This document shows positions 3,850 to 64,000 of a stretch of DNA of 64,000 nucleotides, piece after piece (position 1 is the stretch's first letter; each line of letters begins with the position of its first letter). The notes beneath the pieces are model-generated. The model worked only from the letters and a program-made list of their open reading frames with translations. It did no database searches and was not told where the DNA came from. Position numbers and translations under genes: made by a program. The stretch comes from Gari tellinella (lineage: Eukaryota; Mollusca; Bivalvia; Cardiida; Psammobiidae). The DNA lies in the NCBI GenBank assembly GCA_922989275.2, contig OV277871.1, forward strand, positions 64,749,848-64,813,847, in the 5' to 3' direction.

Positions 3850-4057
3850 AAACTATTACATGTTTTTCCATTGCAAACAGTTTGGAGCCAGATCAGACGC
3901 CGGGTAACCCGGTGTCTGATCAGGCTCCAAACTGTTCCCCTCACATTAAGATGAATAATCAGAATTGTCTAAATGTTGTCCTTTTCTACATTTGATTAAA
4001 ATGCGTTTGCGTTTCGTTTGCGATTAAACGGGAAAGAATAACGCCTATACCACTGTA
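3850..4057 (+). mobile_element. MITE-1, left-truncated, in the intron ahead of the receptor exon
   Basis: It lacks the left TIR and abuts the preceding copy. It keeps the palindrome (GGAGCCAGATCAGACGCC arm) and a right end with a changed tip (ACGCCTATACCACTGTA). Its last base lies about 23 bases upstream of the receptor start codon, so the branch point or polypyrimidine tract of the intron sits at the edge of transposon DNA. Confidence 0.75.
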
Positions 4058-4062
4058 TGTGC

Positions 4063-4080
4063 TTTCTTTTCTTATTTCAG
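4063..4080 (+). other. Predicted 3' splice acceptor immediately before the receptor ATG
   Basis: A pyrimidine-rich run CTTTCTTTTCTTATTTCAG ends exactly one base before ATG at 4081. This is a strong acceptor consensus and implies a 5' non-coding exon upstream. An in-frame ATG 24 bases earlier would lie within this tract and is less likely to be the start. Confidence 0.7.
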
Positions 4081-5193
4081 ATGGCGAATACTACTCATTC
4101 CGGCAACTACAGTTTGGGCTATGACCTACATGAACCTAATTCTAATATAAGCTCAGCCTTTCCAAAAGTTCGTAATGACTTCCATGACGTTGTGATTATG
4201 GCAGAAAAATGCATTTTGCCATTTATCTGTATCTTTGGATTCGTAGGTAACTCTATATCCTGTGTTTTATTTCTCAAAAAGTCTCTAAGGATCAGCTCAT
4301 GCAGTATTTTTCTCGCTGCTAGAAGTATTGTGGACAGTGGGTTTTTAACGAGTGTTTTCGTAGTGTGGGTGTCATCAACGTTCAAGCTCCAATTGAGTCA
4401 CGTGCCAAACTTGTGCAAGGTGCTTGCGTATGTGACGTATGTGTGCGCGTGTATGTCGGCATGGCTCGTTGTGTTCCTGACCATTGAAAACTATCTCCGA
4501 ATCTGCCGACCGGTACTGGTCCAGACGTTTTGTAACACCAGGCGTGCCCGAAACACAATTGTCATTTCGCTATTTCTGTGTCTGTGTTTTTACCAAGTGC
4601 CATTGTGGATATTTGACGAGTACTGCCGACCAGTTCCGAGATTTGCCGAACTAACACATGTACTTGTTTACGGGGACACCCTCATAACGCTCATCATTCC
4701 GACAATTGTCATTTTCGTATCGTTGTGTTCAATAACTACGGCCATGCTTAGATCTTTCAACTTCAGACGACGACGAAGTTCGACTTCACAGCCTACAAGC
4801 AAAAGTCTCCTGGGCAAAGTCACGCGGCTTCTATACTCCGTCACTGTCAGTTTCTTTTGTCTCAGTCTACCGTCCCATATCTTAAGAATTCGACTGTTAA
4901 TTAAGTCATTCGCAGACCAGTCGAACCAAATGACAGCCACTGACGCTGCAATACAGACGCTTGCCTTATTAATATACTACTTATCAATGTCAATTAACGT
5001 CTGCGTTTATTACGCGTTCGGCAGTTCGTTCAGGAAATCTTTTAATGACATTTGCTGTAGATGCTGCAGAACACTGCGTAGACAAACTCGACCTAGAAGT
5101 AGCACTAAAGGAAGCGAACTGTTCTCAAAGGAAACGGAAGCGTCCAGAAAAACATCGTACGTGGCCTTGTACATTATCAAAGGGAAAGGGTAA
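4081..5193 (+). CDS. Rhodopsin-class (class A) G-protein-coupled receptor, peptide-receptor-like
   Basis: The 370-residue product is a seven-transmembrane receptor of the plasma membrane. The N-terminus has three N-glycosylation sequons (N3, N9, N22). TM1 (about 43-65) has the GN pair at 56-57. C112 at the top of TM3 and C182 in loop 2 form the expected disulphide pair. The DRY position reads E136-N-Y followed by LR. TM5 spans about 196-222, a basic third loop RRRRRSS follows, and TM6 has a proline at 264. TM7 has N306-x3-Y310, a degenerate NPxxY lacking its proline. A CCRCC cluster (325-329) after helix 8 suits palmitoylation. The layout resembles lophotrochozoan neuropeptide receptors (FMRFamide-receptor-like), but I cannot name a ligand. 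The frame is open from the splice acceptor to TAA, so the coding sequence is one exon. The N137 replacement of the DRY arginine and the lost proline are unusual and may mark an atypical or orphan receptor. Confidence 0.85.
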   Translation: MANTTHSGNYSLGYDLHEPNSNISSAFPKVRNDFHDVVIMAEKCILPFICIFGFVGNSISCVLFLKKSLRISSCSIFLAARSIVDSGFLTSVFVVWVSSTFKLQLSHVPNLCKVLAYVTYVCACMSAWLVVFLTIENYLRICRPVLVQTFCNTRRARNTIVISLFLCLCFYQVPLWIFDEYCRPVPRFAELTHVLVYGDTLITLIIPTIVIFVSLCSITTAMLRSFNFRRRRSSTSQPTSKSLLGKVTRLLYSVTVSFFCLSLPSHILRIRLLIKSFADQSNQMTATDAAIQTLALLIYYLSMSINVCVYYAFGSSFRKSFNDICCRCCRTLRRQTRPRSSTKGSELFSKETEASRKTSYVALYIIKGKG

Positions 5194-10876: not shown

Positions 10877-13024
10877 CTGGAGGCATTTTTGGGGAAAAGT
10901 TGACAGGCCACCTTTTTATCATAATTAAAGTGTGCTGAATCCATTTAGGGTGCCTGTCACCCTCTCCGGTGCCTTGAAAGCCCAAAAATGGTAAAATCAA
11001 AATGGCCGCGATTTTATGCCGTCACAAAAATTACCGTGAACTACGTTACCGATTTAAAGTATGTGTTGTATAATAATAATTTATGCAAAATACAGCAATT
11101 ACGGTTCCCTGAAATAGGAAATTGAATTAAAAATCATGCAAAATAAGTGTTTTTTTACATGCTCCATGGTTTAAAGAATATATTTCATGGTATTTCTGAG
11201 ATATTAAAAGTATGTGTCTTTCAGTCACATTTTGATACCAGGGCTATGATCTTAACAAACCTAATAGAGGTCTACTACGTTATTCTTTACAAAACAAATC
11301 TAGTATGTGTCACCTTATGTTTTTGACAATGTATTAAACAAACTTTTTCATTAGTAATGTTTGACCATATGGCAAAACTTTACAAATTGTGAAGAATTTT
11401 ACAGTGCTCCCTCTCTACAACAACACCCATCGGGAGTCATATAGTGTGTTTGCTGTTTAGAGGGGGTATATTGAAATAAATTAATGTTGTTAATGCAACT
11501 GTGGCAAGCATTGTTTTAAAGAGGTTATAATTGTAATGAGGGTAGTTGTAGAGAGGGAACACTGTCCTTGGTGATGATTTACACTAGATATCAAAGCTTT
11601 GGGCCTAGTGGTTTTTGACACGAGGCTCTTACATGGACAAAATTAACTTACAATAACGATAGGGCAATGTTAATTTTAATCACGGAGATATGCTTTTTAA
11701 AAAGATTGATAGATGTCTTCTAGGTCGTACTATACACAAAATGTCTAAGCTCTCCGTTGTACGGTTTTTTGTTATAAACACTGAACGGATTGTGATGGCA
11801 GGGGCCAACCATCAGCCTAGGCGATGCTTTAAACAAACAAGATAAAGGTCTACTGTGTTATGCTAATATACAAGCTTGGGCTTTGTGGTTTTTGACAATA
11901 TTTCCTTTCCTATAGAGAATAAGTCTATGCAAAACTGATGACCCTGGTTCGGGGCCAATTTATTAATTTTGTAACATATTGAAATACCGTTTTTGAGTGT
12001 ATTCATTGTTACACCCCTAAAATTTAGATCCAGGTATAAACTTGATAGAGGTCTACTAGGTAATAGTAAGTATCCATCAATTTTCTAAGCTTTGGGATGT
12101 GTGTGTATGTGTGGAGATTGGGGGGGGGGGTTTACAAGAAGAGTAATTCTTGGTTTTTAGGTTTCTCTTTTTCATTACCTTGGTTGCCATGGCAACTAAT
12201 TTTTTTAAAGCACACCCCGTGAACATTATTTCAAAATTTTGCTTAAATAAATCATGAGGTTAAGGAAAGTATATATATTAGGAGTATTAGTTTTAATCCA
12301 AGACTGATTACTGTAACGAAAAACCTGATTTTTCACTTTTGTTGCCATGACAACAGAAGGTCTGCATGAAATCATTTTTCAAAGAGATTTACCCAAACCA
12401 TAGTCTTGTACAGTTGGCTCTTATCAGCCATGTGGTTGAGAGGAAAATGTATTAGGTGTATATAATCCAAGAAAGACTGCATAGAATAACGAAAATTTAG
12501 CGTTTTGGTGGCTATTTTGTGTTGTTGTTGTTTTGTTTACCAATATTTGGCCTTGAACTTCATTGGAGAGGGGGACATACAACAAACTGGATTCACATCA
12601 CTTTAATTATGGTTAAAATGTGGTAGGCCAGTTATCAATAAAGTATCTAAGCTTTGGGCCATGTGATTTATTTTACAAAACATTTTTTTTTTTAAGATTT
12701 CTCTATTTTTTACTTTGGTTGCCATGGCAACCAGAAGTCTACATGTTATCAAATTTTTGATGGAGAACCAACCCAGGAACATTCCTGTAAAGATTTGTTG
12801 TGATAAACCATATATATTAGGAGAAGCAGATGTATTAGGTATATTTGATCTCAAAAAGATTGGATATAATAGCGAAAAAATAACGTTTTAGTGGCCATTT
12901 TGTTTTTTACCATTTTTGGGCTTTCAAGGCATCGGAGATGGTGACAGGCACCCTAAATGGATTCAGCAAACTTTAATTATGATAAAAAGGTGGCCTGTCA
13001 ACTTTTCCCAAAAAATGCCTCCAG
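10877..13024. mobile_element. ~2.1-kb non-autonomous element with ~130-bp inverted termini
   Basis: The left terminus begins CTGGAGGCATTTTTGGGG and the right ends with its inverse, and similarity between the ends continues inward for about 130 bp (the CCCTAAATGG and GGTGACAGGCACC phrases are in both). The interior has no coding frame. It contains perfect RFX-type X-box palindromes GTTGCCATGGCAAC (12183-12196 and 12718-12731) and a variant at 12341-12354. Only the right ~850 bp is present in each unit of the large array. I cannot assign a transposon superfamily. Confidence 0.65.
11400..11564. mobile_element. MITE-2, complete short copy, nested in the 2.1-kb element
   Basis: The 165-bp element has 21-bp inverted tips, ACAGTGCTCCCTCTCTACAA and its inverse with one mismatch. 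It lies inside the 2.1-kb element, so it inserted later. Confidence 0.8.
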
Positions 13025-13129
13025 AAGTGTGATTTCCTCAAAATCCGGCTAGTCTATATACCTAAAATTTAGATTTAGAAAAAAGCATTCGACAATTGTT
13101 TAAAACAGATTAAGTCTTGGAAGTACATG

Positions 13130-13378
13130 TACAGGGGAGACAACGTTATTTTTTCCAAATAAATAAACGCGTTTACGCTAAGACTATAATTTCTCATGAT
13201 TGCAAACAGTTTGGAGACAGATCAGACGCCGGGTTACTCGGCGTCTGATCAGGCTCCAAACTGTTTGCCACTTAGATTAAAACCGAAACACGATAATTAG
13301 ACATTTCAAACAGTTGTAATTTTCTCAATTTTATTGCAACGCGTTTAAGCTGGAACAAATAACGTCTTCTCCACTGTA
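13130..13378 (+). mobile_element. MITE-1 variant with GGGGAG tip
   Basis: The left tip reads CAGGGGAGACAACG and the right inner arm is shortened (GCGTTTAAGCTGGAACAAAT). The same variant is in each array unit (22521-22769 in the first), so this pair is homologous by duplication. Confidence 0.8.
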
Positions 13379-13384
13379 CAAGCA

Positions 13385-13676
13385 TACAGTGGAGAATCTG
13401 TTATTCTTACGTCATTGGTGACGTCATACAGTGGAGAATCTGTTATTCTTTCCCGTTTAAACGCAAACGTACGCAAACGCAAAACACTAAAACGTAGAAA
13501 AGAATAACTTTTGGATAATTCTGATATTTCATGTTTATCTTGGTGGCAAACAGTTTGGAGCCTGATCAGACGCCGGGTTACCCGGCGTCTGATCTGGCTC
13601 CAAACTGTTTGCACTGCAAATAATAGTTTTAGCGTAAACGCGTATATTGGGAAAGAATAATAGATTATCCACTGTA
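13385..13676 (-). mobile_element. MITE-1 preceded by a partial second tip
   Basis: A complete copy runs from 13427 to 13676. Bases 13385-13426 repeat its first ~25 bases and add ACGTCATTGGTGACGTCA. The duplicated tip occurs in each array unit and, inverted, at 15240-15300. Confidence 0.8.
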
Positions 13677-55400: not shown

Positions 55401-55650
55401 TACAGTGGAGAATACGTTATTCTGTTCCGTTTAAACACAAACTAAATGCAAACGCAAATCACTTAAACGTAAGAAATAACAACTTGTTGACAATTCTTAC
55501 TATCTATTTTAATCAGAGTGGCAAACAGTTTGGAGCCTGATCAGACGCCGGGTTATCCGGCGTCTGATCTGGCTCCAAACTGTTTGCACTGGAGAAAATC
55601 GTTTATGCGTAAACGCGTTTATTGGGAAAGAATAACGTTTTATCCACTGT
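55401..55650 (-). mobile_element. MITE-1, complete copy, diverged
   Basis: Tips CAGTGGAGAATACG and GTTTTATCCACTGT; the right TA has become TT. Confidence 0.8.
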
Positions 55651-55894: not shown

Positions 55895-56267
55895 TATATA
55901 TATGAATTAAAAAAATAAATGATGTATTATAGGCTTTAAAAACACAATTTTATTTCTTCAAACAATGCGCGACGCGTTTCACTATAATTCATCAGGCGCT
56001 ATACAATTGTTTATGACGTCATGACGTTGTTGTCATGATATCGACGTCGTCACTTCCTGTTGACGTACATCTAAGATAAATAACTGTGTTTTATTAAAGG
56101 GAGATAATTATTGAGAATTAAGAATAGGTTTAAATTTAGCTATGAAATATTCTTCTTTTGCTAGCCTAGCTGAAACACTATTTGTCTTTAATTTAAAAAA
56201 GGAAACATTTCATAATTTAAGTTTTTCTTTCCGCATTTTTCTAAATGGGCGCTTAAAGGAATTTGTC
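55895..56267 (-). mobile_element. Inverted 3'-end copy of PLE-1 (left arm)
   Basis: This is the reverse complement of 56928-57301 with only a one-base length difference in an A/T run (near 56200 and 57000) apparent by eye. On the minus strand it carries the last ~50 codons of the endonuclease, TAA, the 3' UTR and the ribozyme-like motif. A head-joined inverted 3' fragment is a known insertion form of PLEs. Confidence 0.9.
55961..56010 (-). ncRNA. Hammerhead-ribozyme-like motif in the inverted arm
   Basis: Mirror copy of the motif at 57186-57235, with CTGATGA at 55995-55989 and GAAACGCGTC downstream on the minus strand. Confidence 0.5.
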
Positions 56268-57088
56268 ATCCGAAACACACAAAAACTAACATACCATATA
56301 ATTTGGCCAGAAGAATTTGCACAATAGTTTCATATGAAACAGTTAAAGATAAAAGATTACAAGAATTACACGACACTTTAAGAACAAGAGGTTATCCCAA
56401 ATCCCTTTTACAAGACAGTATTCACAAAGCAAAACAAATCACAAAGTCAGACCTTCTTAAACCAAAACCAAATAATAACACAACTACTCTTCCATACATC
56501 TCAACATTTAACCCAAACAACCAAGAACTTTTTAACAACATAAAAGCTAATTTACCAATATTACAAGCAGACCCAAACATGTCTCAAATTTTAAATAAAT
56601 GTAAACTTATCAAAAGTAAAAGACAAGCTCCAAACTTAAAAAAACTACTTACCAGAGCTAAATTTACAGAGAAACAACATGTACGTTATAAAGTAACAAA
56701 ATGCAATAAATCTAACTGTTCATTATGTCAACATATTAAAGAAAGCGAATTTTATAATTTTAAAGGAATGAAATTTTATGTAAACCAATCAATGTCATGT
56801 GATGTTCAAAACGTATTATATGTTCTTACATGCACTGGATGCGGAGAATACTATATTGGTCAAACTGGAGACAAACTGAGGTCAAGAAGAACAGTTCACT
56901 CACAACAGATAAGAGATCCTTCAACAAGACAAATTCCTTTAAGCGCCCATTTAGAAATATGCGGAAAGAAAAACTTAAATTATGAAATGTTTCCTTTTTT
57001 TAAATTAAAGACAAATAGTGTTTCAGCTAGGCTAGCAAAAGAAGAATATTTCATAGCTAAATTTAAACCTATTCTTAATTCTCAATAA
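56268..57088 (+). CDS. PLE-1: canonical Penelope-like element, 5'-truncated, C-terminal GIY-YIG endonuclease
   Basis: The frame enters from the hairpin junction with CHPKH-type residues and LARRICTIVS, the conserved linker that follows the RT in canonical PLEs, and ends at TAA (57086-57088). There is no RT core left and no real start codon. Numbering from L1 at 56303: a C134-x4-C139-x2-C142 cluster, then the endonuclease with VLY (171-173), C177-x2-C180, YIG (184-186), R195, H199 and a late E247/E248 as expected for GIY-YIG nucleases. In a full PLE this domain nicks target DNA for reverse transcription. The copy has no stop or frameshift in what remains, so it is young but incapable of autonomous movement. 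The clade (Penelope/Poseidon/Neptune) cannot be set without a tree. Confidence 0.85.
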
Positions 57089-57301
57089 TTATCTCCCTTT
57101 AATAAAACACAGTTATTTATCTTAGATGTACGTCAACAGGAAGTGACGACGTCGATATCATGACAACAACGTCATGACGTCATAAACAATTGTATAGCGC
57201 CTGATGAATTATAGTGAAACGCGTCGCGCATTGTTTGAAGAAATAAAATTGTGTTTTTAAAGCCTATAATACATCATTTATTTTTTTAATTCATATATAT
57301 A
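56928..57301 (+). mobile_element. PLE-1 3' end (right arm of the inverted repeat)
   Basis: Holds the end of the endonuclease frame and the ~210-base 3' UTR, running into a TA microsatellite. With the left arm it could form a hairpin of about 373 bp with a ~660-base loop. Confidence 0.9.
57186..57235 (+). ncRNA. Hammerhead-ribozyme-like motif of PLE-1
   Basis: CTGATGA (57201-57207), a very short stem II (ATT/AGT), then GAAACGCGTC (57216-57225), with GCGC on either side pairing as stem I and a further CAAT/ATTG. The ACGCGT at stem III is palindromic with no room for a loop, as in PLE hammerheads that are thought to act as dimers. The core bases are all present; activity is not shown. Confidence 0.6.
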
Positions 57302-57318
57302 TATATATATATATATAT
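57294..57318. repeat. (TA)n microsatellite between two PLE tails
   Basis: About 12 TA units. PLE-1 ends here on the plus strand and PLE-A ends here on the minus strand. Confidence 0.85.
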
Positions 57319-58172
57319 GGTTGAGATATAAGTTACTCTTACAGTGCTGCAATATTCTAACTATAGATATATTCCCGAGCGCTTTCGACAGTTACGTCTT
57401 CTTCAGGGGATATGCAATGAACTCGTTTTGATATTAAAACAAGTCAGACCTTTTTATAAAATGTCGTTGTACACAATGACTCTCTGTGCTGAACGCTTAA
57501 GAACAAGTTTGCTCTTTTAAAAAAATACTTTCAGGTAGTGAATGATGGATGAATGAGTTTGGTTTTACAGCACTGCGACACAATAGGTAATATAGCGCCG
57601 ATGATAAATGATGGACGATGAGATGAGACGATGACGACTTCAGGTCATCCAATACCTGAAATCATCACCATCCCACCCCATCAACCCTCATTCATGATTT
57701 CATGTCATTTAATAGCCGAAATCATCATCTATGAATCTCTGTGATTGGTGAACGCTTGAAAACAAACAAGTCCTTTAAAAAAAATTACTTTCAGGTATTG
57801 AATGATGGATGGATGAGTTCGGCTATACGGCACTGCAACACAATAGGTCATATAGCGCCGATGATAAATGAGGGATGATGAGATGAGACGACGACGACCC
57901 CAGGTCACCCAATACCCGAAATCATCACCATCCCACCCCAATATCCCTCAACCATGATTACAGGCCATTCGATAGCCGAACTCATCATCATCCCATCTGA
58001 TCAATGACTCTCTGTGATGGCTGAATGCTTTGAAACAAGTTAACTCACAGGTATCGAATGAAGTCATTATTGTTTGATGAAAGTGAATGGAGATATTGAT
58101 CTCCTTTGTGGTATGAATGATGAATGGATTATCCATTCACCTTCATCAACCAATAATAGCCAGTTGAATTAC
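57319..58172 (-). repeat. PLE-A 3' region with ~260-bp degenerate tandem repeats
   Basis: Phrases TCTCTGTG, CTTTCAGGTA, TGAATGATGGATG and ATATAGCGCCGATGATAAAT recur with starts near 57481, 57736 and 58009. Two copies are nearly full and the third is partial. No coding frame is credible. The stretch lies between the PLE-A stop codon and its tail, so it is best read as its 3' UTR. Confidence 0.65.
57372..57412 (-). ncRNA. Hammerhead-like motif of PLE-A
   Basis: On the minus strand CTGAAGA (57406-57400, fits CTGANGA), a GAC/GTC stem II with one extra A, then GAAAGCGCTC (57386-57377) whose AGCGCT is palindromic, and CCC/GGG as stem I. The stem II irregularity makes this less certain than the PLE-1 motif. 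Confidence 0.45.
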
Positions 58173-59342
58173 TTAGTCTCCTTTGTTGATACCGTAGGGC
58201 TGTAGTGTGTTCAGACGTCTTATCCAGTAAGTTTCTCGGCTCTTTCGATCTTTATCACACCAACGTTGGTCTGATTCAAGGACACAAAGTTCGATGTCAC
58301 TGAAAGAGTGTTGGTCTTTGCTGAAATGTTCTGCAACTGGAGATCTGTTGAATCTACGTAGCTTCCAATCTGATCTGTGTAGATTTATTCGCCGGCTAAT
58401 GGACATTTTTGTTTCACCCACATACTGTTTCTCACAAATGTTGCATGTCATCAAATATATGGCGTTTGAAGTCTTACAGTTTTGTTCGCCTTTGATTGAC
58501 GAAATTGCACCTGAGTTGCTTTTGAAAACAGACGTGGACTTCATAAGCTGGCATGTCTGGCATCTAGGAGTTCTACATGGACATGACAATCCTCTCTGGC
58601 TTTCTGAGGACTCTGTCTTGATTTTGGACTTGACCAGAATATCACGGAGTGATTTGGGCCTGCGGTAGGCAATGATTGGTTTTTCTGGAAATACTTTGCT
58701 GAGTCTCCTAGATGATTCGATTGTTGGCCAGTGCTTGTCGATCAGCTGGCGAATGTTGGGAAGGTCAGGGTGGTGGGTGACAACAAATGGCACTCTACTT
58801 TTCGATTTGGTTTTCTGTCTGTACTCCAGCAGATCTTGTCGTTCTTGGTTGTGAGCTTTTTTGACTGATTCTGTAACTGTACTTTTGTTGTATCCCCTAG
58901 CTGTCAAGTGTTGCACAAGCTCCTCCGCTCTGCGTTCAAAAGTTGAATCATGTGTGCATATGCGCCTGATACGAAGTGCAAGGCTATATGGAATGTTTTT
59001 GCAACAATGTTTCGGGTGACAGCTAGAGGGTAAGAGGTACTGATGCTTGTCCGTGGGTTTGGTGTACAAGTCGGTAATCAGTTTCCCATTAGTAATGCAT
59101 GAAACAGTATCTAGAAAAACGTGTTGGTCATTTGATATTTCACTTGTGAACTTTATGGTATTGTGAAACGTGTTGGCTTTTTCAAGAAATGTATGTAAGT
59201 CTTTGAGGCTATGGCACCAGTGCATGTCGATATCATCAATGAACCGGAGCCATAGATCAGGTTTTAAATCGACAGATGAAAGTAATTGTATCTCAAAGTG
59301 TCCCATGAAAATATTAGCATATGAAGGGGCCATTTTTGTGCA
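58173..59342 (-). CDS. PLE-A: canonical Penelope-like element, 3' half of RT plus GIY-YIG endonuclease
   Basis: The element's frame enters at 59342 from the pseudo-LTR of the neighbouring Naiad and ends at TAA (58175-58173). In order it has the end of RT motif B (KMAPSYANIFMGHFE), motif C FIDD, the DLYTKPTDKHQYL thumb-side stretch, CHPKH, the linker, a C-x4-C-x2-C cluster (CRTPRCQTC), then GIY-YIG: IY, C-x2-C, YVG, R, H and an ETYWIRRLN glutamate. Fingers, motif A and catalytic YxDD partner regions upstream are missing, so it is 5'-truncated. The coding remainder has no lesion. The frame stays open for a further 43 codons upstream, but these translate the CA-rich pseudo-LTR and are not part of the protein. 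Confidence 0.85.
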   Translation of the reverse strand, partial: CTKMAPSYANIFMGHFEIQLLSSVDLKPDLWLRFIDDIDMHWCHSLKDLHTFLEKANTFHNTIKFTSEISNDQHVFLDTVSCITNGKLITDLYTKPTDKHQYLLPSSCHPKHCCKNIPYSLALRIRRICTHDSTFERRAEELVQHLTARGYNKSTVTESVKKAHNQERQDLLEYRQKTKSKSRVPFVVTHHPDLPNIRQLIDKHWPTIESSRRLSKVFPEKPIIAYRRPKSLRDILVKSKIKTESSESQRGLSCPCRTPRCQTCQLMKSTSVFKSNSGAISSIKGEQNCKTSNAIYLMTCNICEKQYVGETKMSISRRINLHRSDWKLRRFNRSPVAEHFSKDQHSFSDIELCVLESDQRWCDKDRKSRETYWIRRLNTLQPYGINKGD

Positions 59343-59343
59343 C

Positions 59344-59666
59344 CAAATAAATACGAAAGAAGACTCAAGCAGGAAACGCAACACAAACAATACACCCATC
59401 TCTAAAGCAGAACACACACACAGCCATACCATAACAAACACACACACACACGCGCAATACCATTCCTTCATCTACACACTAAATAGAAAACAACACGCAA
59501 GACAAACATAAAGCTAAGTGAACATAGGAGCCCGCCTTGGTACGGTCAGTAGCAATCAATAATCAATTATAAATTAATTAACTATTAACAACCACTGGGG
59601 GTTAAACCTGGGTTTAGGGGCGCCCAACCTCACACTTATCTCCTATATTCACCTATAACGACGAAC
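59344..59666 (-). repeat. Downstream pseudo-LTR of the Naiad
   Basis: Contains CA microsatellite tracts, TTAAACCTGGGTTTAGGGGC and a shared edge GACGAAC. It differs from the other copy at only three places: CGCGC/CACGC, a five- or six-G run, and GCGCCC/GCGCGC. Confidence 0.85.
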
Positions 59667-59930
59667 AGTGTACATAAAATATAAACCCTGTTCCACAACC
59701 TTACAATCAAAAAGACCGCCAGCACAGTAAGTAAATACATGTAAAACATCTAACAAAATTCTCTGACAGGATTATTAGTAACACGGGAAAGAATTAAACA
59801 TTCAAGCCCGTGTTAAAAATAACCCACTATGGCAACGGTCAAATTGTACTCAAGCGAATAGTCTGTAGTCACGAGTAACTGTAAGACATGGGAGGGTTTA
59901 GGGTACGACAGAGAGGGAGAGAAAAACCAA

Positions 59931-59998
59931 AGCACGAAAATCCGACATAACTCTCCCGGTTAAGGACGGCTTTAGAGATACATCATCATGTAGTGCTA
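59931..59998 (-). ncRNA. Candidate type II SECIS element overlapping the stop codon
   Basis: Read on the minus strand. Helix I pairs AGCAC (59997-59993) with GTGCT (59935-59931). After an internal loop comes the quartet AUGA (59989-59986) facing GGAU (59943-59940), giving tandem G.A/A.G pairs. Helix II pairs 59984-59974 with 59944-59954, ten of eleven pairs including two G-U and one U.U mismatch. Twelve bases after the quartet come unpaired AAA (59973-59971), then a CCG/CGG mini-stem with an eight-base loop. These are all the parts of a eukaryotic SECIS at standard spacing. Such an element in the mRNA recruits SBP2 and eEFSec to read UGA as selenocysteine. It starts within the TAG stop codon, closer than usual. 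Confidence 0.8.
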
Positions 59999-62900
59999 AG
60001 CCCTGTCTGTCGTCGCACAACCAAAGAGGAAAGCATAGTTATCAATTGTAGATTGATCGATAACCAAACGTGAAGTGCGCAGCAATATAGTTGGATCATA
60101 ATCTTTTTTGAGGAAAAATCTAATACGTTTCACAAATAGGTTTTGAAAATGCATATGTCCAAGAATCTTACGAAGTCTGTAAATCACATCACCATAAAAC
60201 TCCGGATGTGAAATACCTTGCCGCAGAAAAGACTTTAAGTTACATTTATACTTGTTAATGAGAGGAAGATTTCTATAAAAGAATTTAGAAAATGTTTTAC
60301 GAAGTTCATGAAATCTGTACCCCTGTTTAAGAAGCTTTTCAGTAATAGTTTTATTACGAATGTGGAAGTCCTCAACAGATGTACAAGCCCTAGCAAAACG
60401 AATAAGTTGTGAAATATAAACCCCGTAAGATGTAGAACGGGGAACATCGCCATCTAGATGAGGATAGTTAAAAATACTAAAATCAAAATCATCTCGTTTA
60501 TCGTAAATCTTAGAAGAAACAATACCGTTATTTATTAAAAGATCCAAATCTAAAAATGGTGCCGATAAATTTGACTCGTTTGTTTTATTTAGGCGTAATT
60601 CTTTTGGGTAAATAAAAGGAAACAACGTATCAAAAAATGGATTGTCTATATTAAAAATATCATCTAGATAGCGCGATGTGTTGTTAAAGGCTTCGATCAT
60701 ATCTGCCTGTGTATCAGGTTTTAGACTTAGCATAAAGTCCCTCTCATAACAGTACAAAAATAGGTCTGCGACAAGGGGCGCACAGTTTGTACCCATAGGG
60801 ATACCAATCACTTGGCGGTATATGGTACTCCCAAAACGTACATAAATATTATCCAGAAGAAATGATAGTGTTTTACAGACATCGGTGCAAGTCCACATAG
60901 TGTAATGCTTAACCGTGTCATTTGTAAAAAATGCACGATCAGTATTACACGCCAGAAATAGTTTCCTTTCTCTGGCAAAAGTCTTTTCAATAAGTTGTAT
61001 AAGTTTATCTTTTATTAAATTATGAGGTAAGGTAGTATATAGTGTTGAAAAGTCATACGTACTAATATTGCAAGCTTGGTATTTCCTATGTTCAAGCTTC
61101 GTCAAAATTTCATTCGAGTTTTTGATAGACCAAAACAGATTAAGTCCAGAATTTTCGTAAGTCTTGTCACAATACCTTTGAACATGTTCTTTGATTTTAA
61201 TTAAAGACGATGTCAAAAGTTTGGAAAGCTTAGTAGTAGTACATGCACTTGAATTAGCAATAAAACGAGACTTATATGGTGTTTTGTGGAGTTTTGGTAT
61301 CCAGTACATAGTAGGAAGTTTATGACATGTAATGTTGACGTCAGCTTTTAATTGTTTACAAGTATCAAGATGATCAGATACTACATTATGCTCCGTTAAA
61401 TTAGTCGTTGTATAGGAATTGGTATTCACAAGTTCCTGGTTTAAAGTATCAACATAATGTAATCGTCATACAATTATCACATTATTGGATGCTTTGTCTG
61501 CAGGAACGAGTACATATTTGGAATGAAAGTCTTGTATGCCCTTCTTTAAGTGACGAATGTTAAATTTAGGTTTAGGTGGTAAAAGATGGTTATTGGATAA
61601 ATAGAACGAAATCCGGGTATCGATAATATCAAAAATTAATTCTTTCCATTTTGTAAGAGCGTCATTTTCAGCATGTTCTCTGCGGCACCAGTTGGTACTA
61701 TACTTATTCAAAGCTTCAGAAATATGATTGCGACAAGTATCGAAATCAATTAAGGCAGGTAATCTAAATTTAGGTCCCTTACTCAAAAGCGCTCTAATGC
61801 GTTTATCTTTAATGATATCGAAATTGCCAGTTATTATATGACCCACTGGAGCGTAACAGAATTTAGAAGAGGTACAGTCTCATGTATCTGGTGTGTTTTC
61901 GAGAATTTTAAGATCAGAAACAATTTTATTGTAGTTAAAAATTAACCCTCTAACAGATTTATTATACTTATAACAAATAATAGGTGGTTCAAGATTTTTT
62001 AAATAATTTGGAATAGCATTCATCACATTTTTGTTACGGAGAATACTTTGTAAATCTATGAAATCAATACCTTTATTTATAAAAGGGACCTTAATGAAAT
62101 ATCTTTTGTGATCGTTTAAAGAATCAATATGAGGTCTAAGAACATGCTGAGTATAACTTTGTATTAAACCTGCAGTACAATACAGAGGATCTGTGCGTAA
62201 AATTATTCCATCAGCCTTGTCGTCAATATCTTTTAAAGACGACAATGACAACGAAGAAAGCCGAGAAAGCATTTTATGTTTACCAGAATGTAACAGCAGA
62301 TTATGCAAGTCTGTAATAGAAATCGACTGACGTGATTTACGTTTAATATTTCCATTAATACGAATACCATGCGATCTAGATTTACGCTTTCGTGTAGAAT
62401 AAATCGAAAAAATATCAATTGAAGGTTCTTTAGAAATATTACCAGATTGGTATATATTATCATTCAAGCCTAAAGGAAAGGGTGTCTGTAAATTTTTAAT
62501 CCATTTTAATTCCGTTATAAATCTAGCCTTACATTTGAAACTATTAGTAGCATTTATATCATACATAATATGTTCAACAGGTTGAATTGAAATAAAATCT
62601 AATCCATGTCCAGATTTCCGAAAATGTTGATACAGAAAGTTCCTCAGTTTTTTGTTCCTACAAGTACGAAGATGTTCATTCAACCTAGTTTTGAGAGGAC
62701 GACCGGTTTGCCCAACATACTGGATACCACAACCTGGTGCTTTTCAAGTTAACACGTATACAATATGATTAGTTCGTCAGTTGATGTCTGAATCTATGAC
62801 AACACTAAATAATCTACCGTTTACTGTTGATTGTATAGTAGACTTGCAAGATAAATAATTGCAACACGCTCACCTCTTAGCATTGCACTTTTCAATAATA

Positions 62901-63193
62901 GGATGCACTCTACGTTTTTTGTTCAGTGGTCGTAAAAAAACAGAATTATTGCGTTGAATTGAATATTTAAGAGGTGAAAGCACGACTTTTGGACCATTAT
63001 GAAAACAATTATTAATAGAAATAGATGGAATGTGAAAAGAAGATGCCGAAAAGAGCTTAAGTGGTGTTAGCTGTACGCACGGCTTTAGTGATGCAAAATT
63101 AGTAGTATTTCTAGGGATATGAACAGAACACGCAGAGTGCATTCTAAGTGGTGTAAGGGGTATTTTTAGTCTTTTGTTTGTTTGAAGTTCCAT
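59996..63193 (-). CDS. Naiad-type PLE polyprotein: GIY-YIG endonuclease then reverse transcriptase, five UGA (Sec) codons
   Basis: One frame of 1,065 codons from ATG (63193-63191) to TAG (59998-59996); an in-frame TAG at 63244-63242 bounds the start. It has no TAA or TAG inside, only five TGAs, at residues 108, 139, 150, 438 and 576. Domains: basic N-terminus with LTPL-type repeats (1-102); C103-x4-U108-x2-C111; endonuclease with VYV (145-147), U150-x4-C155, YVG (159-161), R170, H174, H190-x5-H196 and E228; a linker; U438-D-C440, the CxC motif of permuted PLEs; a 'PADKASNN' stretch before U576; RT with fingers YWIPKLHKT and RFIANSS (629-649), motif A YDFSTLY with D714, motif B GIPMGTNCAP (797-806), motif C YLDD (842-845). 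It would nick target DNA and copy its RNA there. With UGA read as selenocysteine the copy appears intact; read as stop it would be broken five times. Confidence 0.85.
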
Positions 63194-63593
63194 GTTTAAG
63201 AGAAGTAAGTTAGCACCTGTCCCTATGTATCGACTATAACTCTACAGAAAGAAAATTCGAAATTTAATATAAAGTAATTCCAATTGGAAAAATGTGAAGA
63301 TTGAAAATGGTTAATGTAAGTAGTGAAAAAAGTAACTGGTGCGACGTTAGCAACTCATCGTCATACCTTATCTTTAATAGAAAGTAAAGAGTTAATGAAG
63401 AACCGGTACAATACCGAAGCTCATCTGACCATCGGTACATAGAGACCTACCATACGGTGCAAGAAAGAAAGCCAAAGAGACGAGTTGTACAACAAGTGCA
63501 CGCTCCTGCAGGAGGAATGATAACAATATTGATTAAATGTACGGGGCGACGTTTTACGGCCTCCACACGGCACAAGTAACACTATTGTGGCAA

Positions 63594-63917
63594 CAAATAA
63601 ATACGAAAGAAGACTCAAGCAGGAAACGCAACACAAACAATACACCCATCTCTAAAGCAGAACACACACACAGCCATACCATAACAAACACACACACACA
63701 CACGCAATACCATTCCTTCATCTACACACTAAATAGAAAACAACACGCAAGACAAACATAAAGCTAAGTGAACATAGGAGCCCGCCTTGGTACGGTCAGT
63801 AGCAATCAATAATCAATTATAAATTAATTAACTATTAACAACCACTGGGGGGTTAAACCTGGGTTTAGGGGCGCGCAACCTCACACTTATCTCCTATATT
63901 CACCTATAACGACGAAC
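63594..63917 (-). repeat. Upstream pseudo-LTR of the Naiad
   Basis: Direct repeat of 59344-59666 with one extra G. Between it and the start codon lies ~400 bases of 5' UTR without features that I recognise. Confidence 0.85.
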
Positions 63918-64000
63918 CCACGGACAAGCATCAGTACCTCTTACCCTCTAGCTGTCACCCGAAACATTGTTGCAAAAACATTCCATATAGCCTTGCACTC
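63918..64000 (+). CDS. PLE-A second copy, plus strand, cut by the window end
   Basis: From 63920 the plus strand encodes TDKHQYLLPSSCHPKHCC and on to LAL, and appears identical at the DNA level to the corresponding minus-strand stretch of PLE-A (59062-58979). It begins about 95 codons further into the protein than the left copy. The rest lies beyond the window. Confidence 0.8.

Follow-up and report, generated by a model that had tools for sequence, protein, structure and literature searches.

A Naiad-type Penelope-like element of the bivalve Gari tellinella with UGA in frame at five conserved cysteine columns and a predicted SECIS element over its stop codon

The window analyzed here is a 64,000 bp stretch of the Gari tellinella genome, whose minus strand carries a single reading frame of 1066 codons (63193-59996; Table 1). 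The interior of the frame contains five TGA codons and no TAA or TAG, and its terminal codon is a TAG (59996-59998), whereas the remaining five frames of 59996-63193 hold 50 to 135 stops each. Mechanical ORF finding returned four ORFs of at least 60 residues, all of them pieces of this one frame; the codon count bears out the sequence-only reading of the locus, made before this analysis, which described four minus-strand frames in one phase, broken by TGA alone and ended by TAG.

Table 1. Features of the element and of its flanks (positions within the window).
Feature	Position	Strand	Remarks
Naiad-type polyprotein ORF, 1065 residues + TAG	59996..63193	minus	GIY-YIG endonuclease N-terminal, UxC linker, telomerase-like reverse transcriptase
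TGA U108	62870..62872	minus	second position of C-x4-U-x2-C (C103, C111); UGA seen in only this copy
TGA U139	62777..62779	minus	Cys/Sec pair preceding GIY-YIG core
TGA U150	62744..62746	minus	11 residues past U139
TGA U438	61880..61882	minus	first position of CxC linker motif (U-x-C440)
TGA U576	61466..61468	minus	end of a strand in the model, past the RT's conserved PADKA-x-NN segment
GIY-YIG endonuclease core, Pfam PF01541	62567..62767	minus	residues 143-209
RT catalytic motif YLDD	60659..60670	minus	residues 842-845
Predicted SECIS (Rfam RF00031, SECIS_1)	59931..59997	minus	AUGA 59986-59989, AAA 59971-59973, 3' GA 59941-59942
In-frame TAA within SECIS	59972..59974	minus	its AA = first two bases of apical AAA; projected stop of 13 relatives
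Upstream copy of 333-bp direct repeat, candidate 5' pseudo-LTR	63585..63917	minus	98.5% identical to downstream copy
Downstream copy of 333-bp repeat, candidate 3' pseudo-LTR	59336..59666	minus	98.5% identical

Naiad Penelope-like elements (PLEs) have a GIY-YIG endonuclease (EN) N-terminal to the reverse transcriptase (RT) in one ORF, a CxC motif between the two, pseudo-LTR direct repeats and an insertion-in-fingers domain, and are not known to carry a hammerhead ribozyme. From its sequence the ORF is read as a Naiad-type PLE, assigned by the order EN, CxC, RT. The GIY-YIG match (24.3 bits, against a Pfam cut-off of 22.6) lies N-terminal to the RT in the same ORF. Residues 438-440 read U-D-C and column 440 was Cys in 102/104 listed relatives, so that U438 does hold the first position of the CxC motif, as had been proposed. 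No Pfam RT domain was detected in the read-through protein at E <=1, and the RT reading is based on conserved motifs, on the PF00078 domain noted for several relatives, and on structure. In a 25-row alignment Y842 and D844 were invariant and D845 nearly so; an AlphaFold2 model built from 66 aligned sequences (mean pLDDT 81.9, with residues 1-95 below 50) had telomerases as its best Foldseek matches in the PDB, where a sequence search gave no match. Both the model and the alignment place U576 at a strand end adjoining the invariant PADKA-x-NN segment. No hammerhead ribozyme was among the three Rfam matches at E <=1 in 56000-64000. The 333-bp direct repeats that flank the ORF would fit pseudo-LTRs, although they could belong to the adjoining PLE instead. 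A truncated canonical PLE follows the ORF, and an inverted 85-bp piece of it lies just upstream. This piece, on the outer margin of the upstream repeat, is a perfect inverted copy of part of the neighbouring canonical PLE (63915-63999, matching 58975-59059).

The two canonical PLE pieces of the window (58173-59339, minus strand, and 56303-57088, plus strand) carry a GIY-YIG domain with the same pattern of cysteines, but their endonuclease stands at the C-terminus of the piece and they have no UGA at the corresponding sites, unlike the ORF described here. By eye, the C-x4-U-x2-C of this ORF corresponds to C-x4-C-x2-C in both of them, and U139 and U150 to two Cys 11 residues apart ahead of Y[VI]G, just as the sequence-only reading had it.

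A search with the read-through protein found 335 relatives, 120 of which were listed and aligned with MAFFT. Among these 120, Cys occupied the U108 column in 39/41 ungapped rows, the U139 column in 44/44, the U150 column in 43/45, the U438 column in 96/104 and the U576 column in 109/120, the other rows being gapped there or not extending that far. The 23 non-Cys cells at the five columns comprised 13 W and ten G, A, N, R, M or E; these ten all sit in seven fused or poorly aligned rows, which were kept in (P0004, P0023, P0025, P0030, P0046, P0060 and P0076). Cysteine in the homologous column, a mark of selenoproteins, was found at all five UGAs; conserved cysteines had been claimed for three of them, which was right for those three but too low a count, since U576, left unplaced at the time, also falls in a conserved Cys column of the 120 aligned relatives. 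As only 14 of the 1065 columns were at least 80% Cys (with at least 20 ungapped rows), the location of the five UGAs is not attributable to chance: the probability that five random codons all fall in those 14 columns is 1.8e-10, or 1e-5 when limited to codons one substitution away from TGA, both figures being post hoc.

The ends of the relatives' proteins were examined in two further searches, one with residues 1-437 (217 found, 120 listed) and one with residues 439-575 (622 found, 120 listed), in both of which a protein was admitted if its length was 0.55 to 1.75 times that of the query, so that shorter ORFs, such as any ending at 107, would be absent. In the first search 62 of the 120 listed relatives ended exactly at 437, one residue before U438, 42 ended exactly at 575, one before U576, and 16 ended elsewhere; in the second, 94 of the 120 listed ended exactly at 575 and 26 elsewhere. 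These stops are known as protein ends and could be TAA or TAG. Other relatives have W at the sites: 31 W at columns 139, 150, 438 or 576 were distributed over 19 relatives, as opposed to none in the 361 BLAST-mapped rows at whichever of ten further conserved Cys columns they cover, although the MAFFT alignment puts a W at column 155 in P0032 and P0076 where the BLAST mapping has none. The W residues likely represent UGA codons that gene callers working with code 4 rendered as Trp, to judge from these protein sequences, but could be real TGG.

In P0177, a relative of 44% identity, the residues at 108, 139, 150, 438 and 576 are C, W, W, W and W. Of the 46 relatives crossing both 139 and 150, W stands at both columns in the five of 44-69% identity, and C at both in the 41 of <=40%. 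Column 108 was Cys in all five with W at 139 and 150, and no relative had W there. U139, U150, U438 and U576 therefore look like traits of the lineage, since relatives have W or ORF ends at those columns, whereas U108, a Cys in each of the five W-bearing relatives that extend over it, may be private to this copy. A scan of genome contigs recovered six relative loci, all distant or partial. In the four with DNA at the sites (L001-L004, about 40% identity or less) the codons there encode Cys, save for a TCA (Ser) at 108 in L003. None of the six loci gave an Rfam match, SECIS included, at E <=1, three of them being short partial matches that may miss the 3' end of the element. Scans of viral contigs (with P0001, A1, P0190 and A3) detected no relatives. 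Stops at non-Cys columns and arbitrary residues at the sites, the outcome named beforehand as contrary to the selenoprotein reading, were not seen among the relatives' proteins, a result that holds at the protein level.

A predicted SECIS element, absent from the sequence-only reading, abuts the ORF on its 3' side. The SECIS_1 match covers the whole model; in a search of 8 kb with all 4227 Rfam families it had an E-value of 0.0082. Its 30.2 bits are below the Rfam gathering score of 35, and it is the only SECIS among the 150 listed of 164 Rfam matches in the 64-kb window at E <=10. Its AUGA lies 12 bases ahead of the AAA. The stability of the hairpin is ordinary (z -1.14; 22/200 shuffles equally good). 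As in eukaryotic selenoprotein genes, a predicted SECIS is found downstream of the UGAs, at a sub-gathering score, but it does not lie wholly in the 3' UTR as is usual: its 5' basal strand starts inside the TAG stop, whose AG makes up the first two bases of the match.

Downstream of C1059 the translated frame runs ATTDRA, TAG, HYMMMYL and TAA. Among the 25 relatives reaching column 1000, 13 project to an end at column 1073 with SMM[VA][PS]T, in an ungapped projection of the protein beyond the end of the BLAST match at 1064-1065, and 11 have other ends. The projection places the Met-Met of the 13 tails, necessarily encoded by AUGAUG, on the AUGAUG of the SECIS, and their stop on its UAA. The 13 relatives form three groups, 63-86% alike between groups. 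One further relative (P0106) stops at column 1068, five columns short, and the frame described here at 1066, which would fit terminal residues that the protein can do without. The SECIS starts in the stop codon here, and the last residues of 13 relatives project over its 5' half; it is thus unlikely to be a SECIS of the ordinary kind, placed downstream in the 3' UTR. Among the 13, only three have W at a U column (P0003, P0006 and P0015, all of one group); column 576 is Cys in eight and uncovered in two, and column 438 is covered in only two, so that signs of selenocysteine (Sec) use come from one of the three groups.

Taken as a Naiad-type PLE with five UGAs at conserved Cys and a 3' SECIS, the element very probably encodes a 1065-residue multi-Sec endonuclease-RT, likely translated via the host Sec machinery. 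This interpretation is favored because all five sites are conserved Cys, because ORF ends or W occur in relatives at four of the columns, and because the SECIS abuts the ORF. The locus had been called an intact selenoprotein gene and not a pseudogene; the selenoprotein part of that claim is supported, with the qualification that U108 may be private to the copy, while intactness we only infer.

Retroelement copies often decay, and this one could be a decaying pseudogene in which the stops are chance nonsense mutations; U108 is, as far as seen, private to it, and of the 120 codons that a single substitution would turn into TGA, 14 (12%) fall in conserved Cys columns. Decay would nevertheless have had to leave the frame without a frameshift and without an interior TAA or TAG, when 317 of the 432 single-substitution steps from codon to stop give TAA or TAG, to put all five TGA on conserved Cys, and to retain a 3' SECIS. 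In relatives with as little as 44% identity, four of these positions carry a W or coincide with the end of an ORF; these shared positions contradict the pseudogene explanation, which we rejected as very unlikely.

The frame would also be open, with UGA at Cys columns, under a nuclear code in which UGA stands for Cys (as in Euplotes) or Trp, with no selenium involved. But 29 of 34 Cys positions are TGT or TGC, and the five TGA all fall among the 14 conserved ones, for which random use gives a probability of about 0.007; in addition, gene callers ended 198 listed relatives exactly at U438 or U576, the window contains an animal-like rhodopsin-type 7tm receptor ORF, and a SECIS is present. Codon use, the SECIS and the gene-caller ends together make a reassigned code extremely improbable, and it was discarded. 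Selenium-free readthrough, with near-cognate Trp or Cys inserted at the UGAs at a low level, a ladder of truncated proteins as the outcome and a hairpin that has nothing to do with it, is compatible with the sub-threshold SECIS score and the unexceptional folding; five serial readthroughs, however, would yield almost no full-length protein, the AUGA, apical AAA and GA stand at SECIS positions, and the Met-Met and the stop at UAA recur in 13 relatives of three groups. On account of the expected yield, the SECIS features and the recurrent tail, readthrough of this kind was likewise rejected, as having hardly any probability.

In the multi-Sec interpretation, the host SECIS-binding protein, Sec elongation factor and tRNA-Sec would act through the SECIS on the five UGAs, and one SECIS for five UGAs may be inefficient. 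The endonuclease would then nick the target DNA, where the telomerase-like RT would copy the element RNA. Without enough selenium, translation would halt at UGA108 and leave the N-terminal 107 residues, making mobility dependent on selenium. Selenocysteine is costly and usually kept for catalytic redox sites. In an account of PLE mobilization, reverse transcription is described as beginning at internal sites of the element RNA (PMC11167929).

Changes between Sec and Cys were counted on trees with labels (U or C) taken from protein ends and W, not from codons, and both trees carry long-branch and few-column warnings. The tree for column 438 contained 173 of 361 rows, including the window and leaving out rows with fewer than 200 residues in 187-436; 67 rows were labelled U, 100 C (167 labelled) and six were unlabelled. 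At least 22 label changes were required on it, against an average of more than 50 for shuffled labels, and the starred branches alone force 14-15. The tree for column 576, based on residues 443-573 of 251 rows (rows with fewer than 100 residues or without a label were left out; U 140, C 111), required only four changes. With four changes against at least 22, U576 looks old and stable, whereas the CxC site looks to have flipped often.

We tentatively suggest, as a possibility that we regard as rather doubtful, that in this Naiad lineage the SECIS moved into the last codons and supplies the gene's stop, the UAA in its apical AAA, so that a finishing ribosome would melt the signal by which it had read the UGAs, a selenium-gated brake, with the CxC site flipping repeatedly between Cys and Sec from copy to copy. 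The stop-overlapping SECIS and the repeated Sec/Cys switching at CxC may be new. Full-text searches found no paper on Penelope-like elements together with selenocysteine or selenoprotein, and broader ones listed none on the subject, but with most subscription journals outside its scope this carries little weight as to novelty. Multi-Sec elements of the Naiad kind are already on record: Craig et al. reportedly described Naiad PLEs in 2021, including multi-Sec ones of clams and spiders. The N-terminal GIY-YIG, the CxC linker, the telomerase-like RT and several Sec codons are reportedly common to those elements and this one; the candidate differences are the SECIS overlapping the stop, U108 in C-x4-C-x2-C and the repeated Sec/Cys switching at the CxC site.

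Human selenoprotein P is described as having 10 UGAs and two SECIS elements in its 3' UTR (PMC5133445); it resembles the reading proposed here in that several UGAs of one mRNA are read by SECIS, but it is a plasma protein and not a mobile element. A GPX4-like selenoprotein of fowlpox virus has its SECIS inside the ORF, reported to be functional in mammalian cells, and its Cys-containing canarypox relative is reported to retain a fossil SECIS (PMC6769590); there the SECIS lies within the ORF of a viral GPX4 homologue, while here it straddles the stop codon of a retrotransposon. With Sec likely at Cys sites of both the endonuclease and the RT, the element makes it possible to ask whether the activity of a mobile element tracks selenium supply, whether Sec can replace Cys at possible zinc sites, and whether a SECIS still functions when it overlaps its own gene's stop codon. 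In standard gene calling such elements come out as pieces that end at the Sec codons, as the 198 listed entries suggest.

Elsewhere in the window, the canonical PLE piece at 55895-57301, which contains the GIY-YIG ORF 56303-57088, has arms of 311 nt in inverted orientation (99% complementary; 55895-56205 and 56991-57301), the right one overlapping the end of that ORF. At 55521-55587 lies a nearly palindromic hairpin whose 31-nt arms are 97% complementary, and weak matches of a similar kind to miRNA models at many sites of the window are possibly copies of it. The region 17880-46449 holds a 5.59-kb unit repeated head to tail in about five copies of 99.8-99.9% identity, with shifted self-matches at 5589-5592 bp, and a related 1.5-kb piece of the unit is found at 12172-13676 (98.8-98.9%). 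The 7tm receptor ORF, an animal-like single-exon gene, lies at 4057-5193 (Pfam 7tm_1, E 6.4e-16). Finally, one relative of the element (P0272, 60% identity, ending one residue before U576) is filed as a protein of Ca. Thiodiazotropha endolucinida, a symbiont of lucinid clams, and it likely represents host clam DNA in a symbiont bin.
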